64,000 bases of DNA, from contig NZ_SNXR01000015.1 of NCBI RefSeq assembly GCF_004362665.1, forward strand, positions 124,001 through 188,000, read 5' to 3'. Positions 6,853-61,893 of this stretch are shown here, piece by piece. The DNA is from Flavobacterium dankookense. GTDB taxonomy: Bacteria > Bacteroidota > Bacteroidia > Flavobacteriales > Flavobacteriaceae. Below the pieces are notes generated by a model, which saw only the letters and a program-made list of their open reading frames with translations, ran no database searches and had not been told where the DNA came from. Made by a program: the position numbers and the translations under genes. Position 1 is the first letter of the stretch. The number at the start of each line of letters is the position of its first letter.

Positions 6853-7122
6853 TTATTTTCTAATACCTAATTCTTTAATAATCTCACGATATCTGTTGAT
6901 ATCTTTTTTCTTTAAATAGTCAAGAAGACTTCTTCTTTTACCTACCAAAAGAACTAACGAACGCTCAGTATTATAATCGTGACGATTTTTTTTCAAGTGC
7001 TCAGTCAAGTGAGAGATTCTAAATGTAAACAATGCGATTTGACCTTCAGCCGAACCAGTGTTTTCAGCTTTTCCTCCGTGTTTAGCGAAGATTTCAGCTT
7101 TTGTTTCTTTACTTAAATACAT
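6853..7122 (-). CDS. rpsO: 30S ribosomal protein S15 (uS15)
   Basis: The 89-residue protein has the standard S15 length and motifs: the IFAKHGGKAENTGSAEGQIA start, the RISHLTEHLKKNRHDY 16S-rRNA-binding segment, and the VGKRRSLLDYLKKKD segment near the end. It binds 16S rRNA early in assembly of the small-subunit platform. The ATG start has no Shine-Dalgarno sequence, as usual here. It sits upstream of pnp on the same strand with a hairpin between. Confidence 0.99.
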   Translation of the reverse strand: MYLSKETKAEIFAKHGGKAENTGSAEGQIALFTFRISHLTEHLKKNRHDYNTERSLVLLVGKRRSLLDYLKKKDINRYREIIKELGIRK

Positions 7123-7228
7123 TCCAATATTATTTTAAATGATTATTATGTATGAAAAGAGGTTTTCTCAATTCGTGTGCAAAGGTAGAAATAATTGTTA
7201 ATTCTGAATTATAAATTATAAATTATTT

Positions 7229-15381: not shown

Positions 15382-15450
15382 TTGGGTAAAACTGACAATT
15401 TTTCAGCGAAGATAGGCAAAGTTGACAAAAGGGTAAGTTGTTTATCAATT

Positions 15451-15522
15451 AGCCCTTGCTGAAATGGCATCCTTTTTCTTGGAAAGAAAAAGATAGAATG
15501 GAAGCAAGGAAAATGGATGCCA
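15451..15522 (+). repeat. candidate pseudoknot element, copy 1
   Basis: On the plus strand, CCTTGCT (15454-15460) pairs with AGCAAGG (15503-15509). TGGCATCC (15465-15472) pairs with GGATGCCA (15515-15522). The two stems interlock as an H-type pseudoknot, with an A/T hairpin (15473-15480 with 15484-15491) between. A second copy with compensating changes lies at 20311-20419 on the other strand. Here it sits between secG and groS, antisense to both. It may be a structured RNA or a mobile DNA repeat. Confidence 0.55.
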
Positions 15523-20310: not shown

Positions 20311-20419
20311 TGGAAACCATTTTCCCGCTTTCCGTTACAATCTGTCATTGCGAGGAAGAAAGCAGTAACATCTAACAATTCAAAATCGCAATGACAGGAT
20401 TTCCACTTCAATCGGGGCT
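20311..20419 (-). repeat. candidate pseudoknot element, copy 2, with a CATTGCGA hairpin
   Basis: On the minus strand the order matches copy 1. P1 is formed by 20416-20410 with 20330-20324 (CCCGATT/AAGCGGG, one mismatch). P2 is formed by 20405-20397 with 20318-20311 (TGGAAATCC/GGTTTCCA, one bulge). P1 and P2 interlock. The apical hairpin is an 11-bp stem TGTCATTGCGA (20343-20353 with 20386-20396) and looks like an insertion of the dispersed CATTGCGA repeat. It lies upstream of miaB and in its orientation, so it may be in the miaB leader. Confidence 0.55.
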
Positions 20420-20489
20420 AAATGACAATCAATTATAATTTCAGTAAAGTTTCAAAAACTAGTAGAGTGTGGAGGTAGTATTTTCTCTA

Positions 20490-59975: not shown

Positions 59976-60005
59976 TTGTAGATATCAATATTCGTTGTAT
60001 ATTTG
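59976..60005 (+). promoter_or_regulatory. promoter of initiator tRNA
   Basis: TTG (59976-59978), a 19-base spacer and TATATTTG (59998-60005) match the Bacteroidota promoter. The tRNA begins 13 bases downstream. Confidence 0.75.
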
Positions 60006-60017
60006 CACCCGAAACAT

Positions 60018-60090
60018 CGCGGGATAGAGCAGTAGGCAGCTCGTCGGGCTCATAACCCGAAGGTCACAGGTTCGAGTCCTGTTCCCGCTA
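60018..60090 (+). tRNA. tRNA-Met (CAT), initiator type
   Basis: A complete cloverleaf without encoded CCA. The acceptor stem pairs 60018-60024 with 60083-60089; its first pair is an unpaired C-T, a mark of initiator tRNA. The anticodon stem TCGGG/CCCGA ends in three G-C pairs around the loop CTCATAA (anticodon CAT at 60051-60053), another initiator feature. The T arm is ACAGG-TTCGAGT-CCTGT. A hairpin terminator follows. The 3' half is duplicated 353 bases downstream. Confidence 0.96.
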
Positions 60091-60095
60091 CAAAA

Positions 60096-60121
60096 AAAGC
60101 CATTCAGAAATGAGTGGCTTT
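60096..60121 (+). terminator. terminator of the tRNA gene (copy A)
   Basis: AAAGCCATTCA and TGAGTGGCTTT form an 11-bp stem with one wobble and a GAAA loop; T-rich sequence follows. The same hairpin recurs at 60449-60474 after the truncated tRNA copy. Confidence 0.85.
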
Positions 60122-60133
60122 ATTTATATTGAA

Positions 60134-60388
60134 ATGGATGAGTTTGTTGTATATGTTTTATACTCAAAAGAACATGGTAAAACATACATAGGTTTTACTT
60201 CTAATTTGATTGAACGATTTAAATCTCATAATTTTTTGAGTAGTAAAGGTTACACAGTTAAATTTAGACCTTGGGTTGTAATACATTTGGAATATTTCTC
60301 ATCAAAAACTGAAGCTTTAAAAAGAGAAAGACTCTTAAAAACAGGAAAGGGCAGAGAGTTTGTAAAGGGAATTATTTCCAATTTATAA
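60134..60388 (+). CDS. GIY-YIG nuclease-like protein
   Basis: An 84-residue single-domain GIY-YIG protein from the ATG at 60134. A further ATG at 60110 lies inside the tRNA terminator hairpin and is unlikely to be used. The motif is VVYVLYSKEHGKTYIGFT, followed by NLIERFKSHN with the conserved Arg, and the EALKREKxLK-like ALKRERLLKTGKGREF end, so the fold looks complete and possibly active. It belongs with the small YhbQ/UvrC-N-like group. It lies between two copies of the tRNA-fMet 3' end, suggesting insertion or duplication at the tRNA. No promoter of its own was seen. Confidence 0.85.
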   Translation: MDEFVVYVLYSKEHGKTYIGFTSNLIERFKSHNFLSSKGYTVKFRPWVVIHLEYFSSKTEALKRERLLKTGKGREFVKGIISNL

Positions 60389-60403
60389 ATTTTTGGGCTC
60401 ATA

Positions 60404-60417
60404 TCCGCCGCGGCGGA
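60404..60417. repeat. perfect GC palindrome
   Basis: TCCGCCGCGGCGGA equals its own reverse complement, and it is 86% G+C in an AT-rich surrounding. It sits exactly where the tRNA copy departs from the original. Confidence 0.9.
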
Positions 60418-60448
60418 CACAGGTTCGAGTCCTGTTCCCGCTACAAAG

Positions 60449-60474
60449 AAAGTCATTCAGAAATGAGTGGCTTT
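60449..60474 (+). terminator. terminator copy B after the GIY-YIG gene
   Basis: AAAGTCATTCA and TGAGTGGCTTT form the same stem as copy A with two wobbles, followed by ATTTTTTT. It would end a GIY-YIG transcript. Confidence 0.8.
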
Positions 60475-60498
60475 ATTTTTTTACAATAAAACGAATTT

Positions 60499-60945
60499 AT
60501 GAAAAGAGTTATTGAGTACAGAAAGTTACTAGAAGTTGACAAAAACGTAACTTTAAAAGAGTTAAAAACCATTTACAGAAACTCGATGAAAGATAATCAT
60601 CCTGACAAGTTCGTAAATGATGAAGAAGGAAGAAAAAATGCAGAAGAAGTTAGTAAAAACATCATTGCAGCGTATCATTTTTTAGTAAGTATTTCAAATG
60701 AAACACTGGAAAAAAATCTACCAGAATATCAAGAAACAACAACAAAATTTAATATTCATGATTTTTATTATGAAAAGCAGACGTTGTTTGTTACCTATTT
60801 AAATGGAGTTTCATACGAATATATAGGTGTTCCAAAAAATATTTATGTAAAAATGGTCAATGCTGAATCGCCTAACCGATTTGCTAAAAGACACATTTAC
60901 GGAAATTTTATTTACAGAAAATCAGGCGAAGGAACTGAAGAGTAG
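60499..60945 (+). CDS. J-domain plus KTSC-domain protein
   Basis: A 148-residue cytoplasmic protein. Residues 1-65 form a DnaJ-like domain with the HPD motif at 34-36 (DNHPDKF). Residues about 88-140 match the KTSC domain, named after the C-terminal domain of some lysyl-tRNA synthetases (LFVTYLNGVSYEYIGVP, then IYGNFIYRK). J-domains stimulate Hsp70, so this may connect a KTSC-recognised target with DnaK. The exact role is unknown. Confidence 0.82.
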   Translation: MKRVIEYRKLLEVDKNVTLKELKTIYRNSMKDNHPDKFVNDEEGRKNAEEVSKNIIAAYHFLVSISNETLEKNLPEYQETTTKFNIHDFYYEKQTLFVTYLNGVSYEYIGVPKNIYVKMVNAESPNRFAKRHIYGNFIYRKSGEGTEE

Positions 60946-61008: not shown

Positions 61009-61893
61009 ATGTCACACAAAGCAGGTTTTGTTAATATAATTGGTAACCCAAATGTCGGGAAATCAACGCTAATGAATGCATTTGTTGGCGAAAGATTATC
61101 TATAATTACTTCAAAAGCACAAACAACTCGTCACCGAATCTTAGGAATTGTAAATGGTGATGACTTTCAAGTTGTTTTGTCCGATACGCCAGGAATTATA
61201 AAGCCTGCGTATGAAATGCAAAAATCTATGATGGATTTTGTAAAATCTGCCTTTGAAGATGCTGATGTTTTGATTTATATGGTTGAAATAGGTGAAAAAG
61301 AATTGAAAGATGAAGATTTTTTTAATAAAATAATTCATTCTAAAATTCCAGTTTTATTGCTTTTGAATAAAATTGATAAATCAAATCAAATCGAATTAGA
61401 AGAGCAGATTGATTTGTGGGCAACTAAAGTCCCAAATGCGGAGATTTTTCCAATTTCGGCTCTAGAAAATTTCAACGTAAAAGAGGTTTTTGCCCGAATC
61501 TTAGACTTACTTCCTTTATCTGAACCATATTATCCAAAAGATGCGTTGACGGATAAACCAGAGCGTTTTTTTGTAAACGAAACCATTCGTGAAAAAATTC
61601 TTTTAAATTATGATAAAGAAATTCCATATGCTGTAGAAATTGAAACAGAAGAATTTCTTGAAGACGAAAAAATCATCCGAATTCGTTCGGTAATTATGGT
61701 AGAACGCGATACCCAAAAAGGGATTATTATTGGTCACAAAGGTGCTGCATTGAAAAAAGTGGGAATGCAATCTCGTGAAGATTTAGAAAAGTTTTTTGGA
61801 AAACAAATTCACATCGAGTTGTATGTAAAAGTCAATAAAGATTGGAGAAGTAATGCCTATCAACTTAGACGATTTGGGTACAACCAAAAATAA
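61009..61893 (+). CDS. era: GTPase Era
   Basis: An essential GTPase of 16S rRNA maturation and 30S assembly. The 294-residue protein has G1 GNPNVGKST near residue 11-19, DTPG, and NKID motifs, and a C-terminal KH domain ([20 protein letters not shown]) that binds the 16S 3' end. Length is normal. TAACTTTG at 60988-60995 is a -7 element 13 bases before the ATG. It is followed by the related GTPase gene der. Confidence 0.98.

Follow-up and report, generated by a model that had tools for sequence, protein, structure and literature searches.

Elements that carry a tyrosine integrase insert in tRNA genes, restore the 3' end of the gene and leave a displaced copy of that 3' end at the far side. For GIY-YIG nucleases, the nearest functional parallel to the locus described here is SegB of the T-even phages, whose gene is frequently found near tRNA genes and which is needed for tandem amplification, proposed to proceed via microhomology between the tRNA gene and the nuclease gene (PMC13096335). 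The prokaryotic members of the SLX1 family were described as a minimal GIY-YIG variant, and the portion of that paper that was available contains no tRNA-linked mobile role for UPF0213/SLX1 proteins (PMC1564403). Moreover, CGTC REPs were reported to be without a dedicated transposase (PMC3733652).

Here, we describe a locus in a 64,000-nt stretch of the Flavobacterium dankookense genome (the whole stretch is referred to as the window and the genome as G000), which we read, with a probability of roughly 70%, as a minimal mobile element that is resident in tRNA genes and would move through the action of an SLX1-like nuclease on a hairpin together with host recombination. The unit of about 350-390 bp consists of a solo SLX1-like GIY-YIG gene, a palindrome that is linked to the protein clade, and sequence derived from tRNA. 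Relatives differ in whether a given tRNA locus contains the unit, which also forms tandem arrays and decays. No description of such tRNA-linked GIY-YIG elements was found in searches of an open-access library, and none of the known systems compared here combines all of the tested features.

Organisation of the locus

ARAGORN found a single tRNA in the window, tRNA-Met(CAT), which Rfam placed identically (Table 1), and a whole-genome DNA search of the 19-contig assembly returned one full-length fMet match and the partial copy. The unit runs in the order intact tRNA, terminator T1, GIY-YIG ORF, tRNA-derived fragment with a palindrome, and terminator T2. A repeat search of the window revealed a 64-nt direct repeat (60062-60125 versus 60415-60478; 95% identical, 3 mismatches), which contains the recurrence of 60065-60125 at 60418-60478 that had been recorded in a preliminary description of this DNA (59 of 61 bases identical). 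The anticodon-arm piece GGGCTCATA, also recorded there as recurring, lies within a 12-nt repeat at 60046 and 60395 (11/12 identical). Overlooked in that description was a perfect 14-nt palindrome, TCCGCCGCGGCGGA, which separates GGGCTCATA from the T-arm copy and is the one occurrence of TCCGCCn(1-3)GGCGGA in the whole window genome. In the occupied allele, the upstream tRNA gene is intact and the displaced copy is the one altered by the palindrome.

The small GIY-YIG gene that had been reported between the repeats was confirmed (PF01541, E 6e-16) and is the only plus-strand ORF of at least 50 aa there, with a 68-aa ORF overlapping it on the minus strand, which is in agreement with the earlier proposal of an insertion without an integrase. 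The Bacteroidetes promoter consensus is TTG/TAnnTTTG, and the likely promoter of the tRNA is given in Table 1; only 8 nt lie between the T1 tail and the ATG, which leaves little space for a separate GIY-YIG promoter. T1 and T2 are nearly the same at this locus, so the direction of the exchange is unreadable in the window lineage. The layout is not a product of chance, since the identical plan occurs dozens of times among relatives. A group I intron or another known RNA at the locus was considered and rejected, as Rfam at gathering thresholds gave only the tRNA there. Elsewhere in the window, Rfam placed two Flavo-1 RNAs (20317-20423, minus strand, and 15447-15516, plus strand) and an S15-Flavobacteria ribosomal leader (7120-7187, minus strand).

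Table 1. Features of the tRNA locus (window positions) and gene-bearing REP-like units in two relatives.
Feature	Position	Strand	Basis
Probable tRNA promoter, which would also serve the element by read-through; TTG ... TATATTTG	59976..60005	+	read from the sequence
Initiator tRNA-Met(CAT), intact, sole full-length copy found in the genome	60018..60091	+	ARAGORN, Rfam, whole-genome DNA search
Terminator T1, hairpin 60098-60119 and T-rich tail	60098..60125	+	sequence; first copy of the direct repeat
GIY-YIG nuclease gene, 84 aa, predicted SLX1-like	60134..60388	+	PF01541, alignments, structure model, Foldseek, dN/dS
Partial tRNA copy, anticodon-arm piece GGGCTCATA	60395..60403	+	repeat with 60046-60057
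Palindrome TCCGCCGCGGCGGA, in place of the anticodon stem 3' side and variable loop of the copy	60404..60417	.	sequence
Displaced copy of the tRNA T arm and acceptor 3' strand	60418..60444	+	direct repeat of 60065-60091
Terminator T2, copy of T1	60451..60478	+	direct repeat
Host flanking gene with DnaJ-like and KTSC domains; indicates the downstream flank of the insertion	60499..60945	+	Pfam; orthologues in relatives
Host flanking gene, taken to be era	61009..61893	+	tblastn in relatives' fMet loci
Gene-bearing REP-like unit (L060)	G006:C11:628479-628958		
Gene-bearing REP-like unit (L093)	G015:C9:314563-315065		

The GIY-YIG protein

PF01541 was the only Pfam match of the ORF and covers residues 13-79 of the 92-aa reading. 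Translation likely begins at the ATG at 60134 (84 aa) rather than at 60110, because the majority of relatives start there. The residues Y7, Y18, R28 and E65, which we take to be catalytic, were invariant in the alignments. The AlphaFold model of the 84 residues is one compact domain (mean pLDDT 96), for which the best Foldseek match was SLX1 (6seh; E 1.6e-4, TMq 0.69, 37% identity), with further matches to the UPF0213 structures 1zg2 and 1ywl and with the I-TevI catalytic domain at an E of only 1.3. Kinship with SLX1/UPF0213 was also obtained in the sequence search, and neither Pfam nor the structure model gave a separate sequence-specific DNA-binding region in the 84-aa protein. As judged from the model, the protein is SLX1-like, a structure-specific type of nuclease, in the form of a stand-alone domain. 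The median dN/dS of 0.13 (638 pairs with dS 0.1 to 1.5 among 58 ungapped ORFs) signifies strong purifying selection, i.e., a protein that is selected to work.

These features bear on the main rival explanation, classical free-standing homing, in which the GIY-YIG protein would cut the uninterrupted tRNA gene of a recipient and the break would be repaired from the occupied allele. We consider it unlikely on the whole, even though the free-standing SegB, often located by tRNA genes, was implicated in breaks in tRNA-containing sequence and is needed for tandem amplification (PMC13096335). A catalytic domain of 84 aa alone that is closer to SLX1 than to I-TevI is not what homing would suggest, and, with the tRNA intact in the occupied allele, a tRNA-cutting enzyme would cut its own copy. 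According to the same source, self-cutting by such homing enzymes is typically inefficient (PMC13096335).

Copies in the genome, in relatives and in the phylum

Seven PF01541 matches were found in the window genome, five of them directly 3' of a tRNA gene (fMet, Val-TAC with two units in tandem, Leu-TAA and Phe-GAA) and the remaining two in long proteins (610- and 456-aa frames). All five follow the same plan, with the tRNA or a preceding unit, a terminator, the GIY-YIG gene, a partial tRNA copy with a palindrome and a terminator copy; the Phe copy has an internal stop. Across 40 genomes (G000 included, 24 of the others from the same genus), there were 0 to 17 PF01541 matches per genome, UvrC and other long proteins counted, and the relatives' loci that we examined were a part of these matches (automatically fetched loci and 40 further regions). 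Among the matches listed, tRNA-linked units of the relatives were located at fMet, Val, Pro, Ala, Asp and His. Copy number was patchy, and head-to-tail arrays with a period of about 350-390 bp occurred, such as five units at Pro-TGG in G022, six Pro-type units in G007, one of which was broken, and three at Val in G017. The site of the palindrome differs among tRNA types. In the relatives' units at Val, Ala and Pro it stands in place of the anticodon arm, in the fMet and Asp copies it takes the 3' side of that arm, and in the Leu, Phe and Val copies of the window genome it lies in the T arm or loop.

A scan for Met-type loci, run with the Met-type protein on one genome per species, confirmed 115 stretches, of which 79 loci were retained, mostly from Flavobacterium and also from Chryseobacterium, Cloacibacterium, Kaistella, Algoriphagus, Aquimarina and Flavisolibacter. 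ARAGORN called a tRNA-Met upstream in 51 of the 79; among the other 28, 21 begin close to the end of a contig or are preceded by another unit or a palindrome copy, five come after a bare tRNA 3' end, and two (L174 and L205) have neither a tRNA 3' end nor a preceding unit or contig end upstream. A Flavobacterium-type fMet-era locus with the element was also met in a Rhizobium MAG (L194), which is probably a mislabelled or contaminated bin.

In the phylum, the tRNA-clade profile matched 195 of 296 genomes, with up to at least 18 matches per genome (18 candidates were scored in each). A sample of 70 loci, one per genome and our own included, was examined, 30 fetched automatically and 40 chosen down the list. 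In 55 of them a same-strand tRNA gene ends within 250 nt upstream, and 14 anticodons for 11 amino acids were represented (Val, Met, Asp, Asn, Ala, Gly, Pro, Lys, Arg, Ser and Thr). The remaining 15, without an upstream tRNA, include some at contig ends and some with a tRNA directly downstream; in L282 and L308, a complete-looking tRNA stands directly downstream of the GIY-YIG gene and none was called upstream. Carriage by phages or plasmids was rejected, as 0 of the 121 viral-contig stretches that matched the peptide patterns encoded a relative and just two distant matches were obtained in 72,556 plasmid records.

Empty sites and the direction of the proposed insertion

The fMet gene adjoins era in many relatives. 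A tblastn search of the fMet loci showed the order fMet, single terminator and era without a GIY-YIG gene in G002 and G003, and the empty locus of G012 aligns with the occupied one of G023, in which the insert extends from behind the first terminator to the end of the second; orthologues of the DnaJ-like/KTSC gene also adjoin this pair. In addition, 13 occupied loci and 10 loci without an intact gene, the latter from among the relatives' fMet loci, formed 20 pairs that matched in blastn at E 1e-10 or better on both flanks. In some relatives the intact gene is gone and decayed traces are left, as in L108 and L127, which retain the palindrome and a T-arm remnant. At any one locus taken alone, an apparently empty site could also have arisen by deletion of a simple tandem duplication. 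A separate observation concerns L041:142-263, where partial fMet copies, one with a palindrome, lie upstream of an intact fMet with no GIY-YIG gene seen between; in the sister genome G012, the place of these partial copies is taken by another intact fMet, its second.

Both terminators were readable in 53 Met-type loci, and the ACACCACT type was found as T1 in 20 and as T2 in 3 of them. The same type was found in 0 of 28 tRNA-Met loci of relatives without an intact gene, a few of which keep decayed traces and one of which was read at elongator tRNA-Met. Occupied and empty loci were compared side by side in nine pairs, three of which were clean: in L171, L180 and L210 (the latter with a broken ORF) versus L124, T2 agrees with the empty-site terminator and T1 is of the foreign type. 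Two pairs, L198/L121 and L218/L107, point in the same direction in part, as T1 could be a diverged copy there. Three were uninformative (L168 and L172 versus L111, and L194 versus L112), with T1, T2 and the empty site alike or of one type, and in one (L184 versus L121) the empty site was matched by neither terminator. Thirty loci have a T1 and a T2 that differ; the one closer to some empty-site terminator was T2 at 18 of these and T1 at 12, and in eight of the ACACCACT-type loci neither was a good empty-site match. At the loci of the three clean pairs, the terminator types indicate that a new tRNA 3' end and terminator came in with the element and that the host's own were displaced.

These comparisons also bear on the possibility of a domesticated locus, in which ordinary tandem duplication would have set tRNA ends round a resident gene that is inherited vertically, perhaps with a role as a tRNA-like RNA. 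The alike T1 and T2 of the window, the often well preserved tRNA-like fragment and the Flavobacterium solisilvae locus L167 (protein 89% identical), which keeps the same arrangement and the same downstream gene start, would suit such a history. The foreign T1 beside a T2 of the empty-site type, the patchy presence, the decayed remnants and arrays, and the 14 anticodons of the phylum sample all argue against it, and we regard it as very improbable.

The preliminary description had proposed an insertion into the tRNA gene with rebuilding of its 3' end and had reasoned that an empty site with a single tRNA end would speak for this. Such sites exist in relatives (G002, G003 and G012) and favour an insertion; the terminator-bearing rebuilding was read elsewhere in the clade and not at the locus of the window, whose T1 and T2 are alike. 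Other tRNAs followed by a GIY-YIG gene and a partial tRNA copy, for which a search had been suggested, proved to be common in the genome, the relatives and the phylum sample. The idea of a minimal element that targets tRNA-fMet stood as far as the minimal element is concerned; the family is not confined to fMet, and its clades largely follow the tRNA type. The protein clade of the window is restricted to initiator and elongator tRNA-Met.

Association of the palindrome with the protein

TCCGCCn(1-3)GGCGGA was found at most 260 nt after the ORF in 53 of the 79 Met-type loci and in 0 simple shuffles, the exact motif being missing from the other 26. When, less strictly, any GC-rich palindrome within the first 60 nt was accepted, 51 of 74 loci were positive (five loci with short or cut ORFs omitted), compared with a mean of 4.4 in dinucleotide shuffles. 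Four loci (L176, L206, L208 and L217) combine a protein of the Met clade and a T1 of the ACACCACT type with the elongator tRNA-Met; their tRNA-derived parts are of elongator sequence, and the TCCGCC-type palindrome is exact in L176 and imperfect in the other three. Conversely, proteins of three clades, with palindromes of three types, are found at Val-TAC.

On a tree of 214 proteins, the TCCGCC label required one change and marked one clade of 80 rows (38.1 changes when shuffled). Six palindrome types required 10 changes (least possible 5, shuffled 43.8), in a crude typing that omitted, of 216 units, 52 without a GC-rich palindrome and 36 that fitted no type. The tRNA labels required 18 changes for nine types (least 8, shuffled 57.9), with Asp and Pro-CGG scattered. 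A second tree was built from 77 proteins of the window genome and relatives, pieces shorter than 70 aa and two duplicate readings having been dropped; its alignment is short and many forks are unresolved, and it split the tRNA-linked proteins (36) from the others (41) by one change with a branch support of 94. The tRNA-target labels, which were taken from the flanks and in several cases from the partial copy where ARAGORN gave no whole tRNA, required 9 changes on this tree (least 8, shuffled 33.6).

Homing would explain that the proteins cluster by tRNA target; what stays with the protein across these comparisons appears to be the palindrome and not the tRNA, in the sense of an association rather than binding, and this speaks against homing. 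The designation as a homing enzyme in the preliminary description was not substantiated, given that the protein is SLX1-like and has no DNA-binding domain, that the occupied allele retains an intact tRNA and that the enzyme is accompanied by a palindrome. The same association is relevant to movement in trans, in which Xer, a tyrosine integrase or an IS200/RAYT transposase would act on the hairpin and the GIY-YIG gene would be a passenger or accessory. Elements with a tyrosine integrase typically rebuild the 3' end of the tRNA. REPs are also thought to be mobilised by RAYTs (PMC3733652). We nevertheless consider movement in trans quite improbable, because units of 350-390 bp leave no space for a further sizeable gene, the palindrome type changes with the GIY-YIG clade and the GIY-YIG protein is under strong purifying selection.

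The palindrome spacer ranges from 0 to 5 nt, and this variable length suggests a hairpin rather than a rigid duplex dyad. Folded as single-strand DNA, the window copy gave a weak result, with a z of -1.55 and a best fold without the palindrome hairpin. With respect to a possible spread of the palindrome by itself, TCCGCCn(1-3)GGCGGA was missing from 17 of the 24 same-genus relatives and present in G004, G017, G023 and four others; the three named, all of which have Met-type elements, contain 4, 12 and 5 copies, respectively. In the 20 regions examined, the extra copies lay in other repeats, terminators or unrelated sequence. In L170, L172, L175, L192, L194, L196, L204 and L218, the displaced copy contains, in its T-arm/acceptor sequence, a further palindrome-like insert that resembles the first palindrome or is identical to it, as if palindromes had been copied into new positions.

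A sister clade among REP-like repeats

In the sister clade of GIY-YIG proteins, some genes lie inside REP-like inverted repeats; most of the 41 non-tRNA proteins are found among such repeats, and some of the 41 showed no clear flanking repeat. The sequence GTCATTTCGACGAAGGAGAAATC forms inverted pairs in G006 and G015, with 11 and 13 pairs less than 600 bp apart, of which 10 and 12 are spaced 63-78 bp. One pair per genome, 457 or 480 bp apart, encloses a sister-clade GIY-YIG gene (Table 1), and the gene-less pairs are units of about 98 bp (10 in G006 and 12 in G015). The 16 short units examined out of these 22 (L336-L351) have terminal sequence in common with the gene-bearing units, and several also match these in further inner sequence. 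The REP-like pair with its gene looks like an autonomous element, of which the short units would be miniature derivatives. The GTCATTTCGACGAAGGAGAAATC REP sequence is also present at 15 places in the window genome, where the repeats may be orphaned, as its seven PF01541 matches are five tRNA-linked units and two long proteins.

Tagged hairpins (CGTC or TGTC with a 7-9 bp stem) occurred upstream of 3 and downstream of 4 of 44 genes of the non-tRNA clade. For the tRNA clade the counts were 2 and 1 among 41 genes, and shuffles gave about 0.8 and 1.1 per 44; an identity of the sister-clade repeats with CGTC REPs is a lead only. We tentatively propose, at slightly less than even odds, that small SLX1-like GIY-YIG nucleases are palindrome-directed mobilisers that found an unrecognised class of transposable elements in Bacteroidetes, one branch of which parasitises and rebuilds tRNA genes, while the sister branch moves REP/REPIN-like repeats and may provide the enzyme that is missing for, e.g., the CGTC REPs.

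Discussion

In the preferred reading, the element would be expressed and moved as follows. Read-through from the tRNA promoter would express the GIY-YIG gene, and the nuclease would cut its palindrome once this is extruded as a hairpin or cruciform. The tRNA-bearing ends would then recombine, by host repair, with an intact gene for the same or a similar tRNA, by which the unit would be inserted. On insertion, the left end would supply a replacement tRNA 3' part together with its own terminator, which would keep the tRNA whole, and the 3' part and terminator that the host's tRNA gene had before would come to lie behind the palindrome; both steps were read in one sublineage and are presumed for the rest. 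The same break between direct repeats would yield arrays and losses.

If this is right, one 84-codon gene, a hairpin and borrowed tRNA sequence would make up a mobile element that is remarkably small and looks autonomous. The gene that it occupies is essential, here the sole full-length initiator tRNA gene found, and the tRNA is left intact. SLX1-type nucleases, which are known for repair, would gain a role in transposition, and there would be an explanation for the partial tRNA genes that precede small GIY-YIG genes in Bacteroidetes. Together with the sister clade, a published open question, i.e., which enzyme moves the REPs that lack a transposase, becomes testable.

Compared with SegB, which is a phage homing enzyme, the gene described here is chromosomal and encodes an 84-aa, SLX1-like catalytic domain only, and it is accompanied by rebuilding of the tRNA 3' end, by its own terminator in one sublineage and by a protein-linked palindrome. 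As in free-standing GIY-YIG homing endonucleases, the GIY-YIG domain with its conserved residues is present. The restored tRNA 3' end with a displaced copy at the far side resembles the tyrosine-integrase elements (genomic islands and integrative plasmids); unlike these, the unit has no integrase, is about 350 bp long, has a palindrome at the junction and forms tandem arrays. As in the REP/RAYT system (REPtron), small hairpin repeats are linked, by association, to an enzyme gene, but the enzyme is a GIY-YIG protein with an SLX1 fold and not an HUH tyrosine transposase, and the palindrome of the tRNA branch is not dispersed, with one copy in the window genome. With the UPF0213/SLX1 GIY-YIG family, the protein shares its fold, its sequence and its stand-alone minimal domain.
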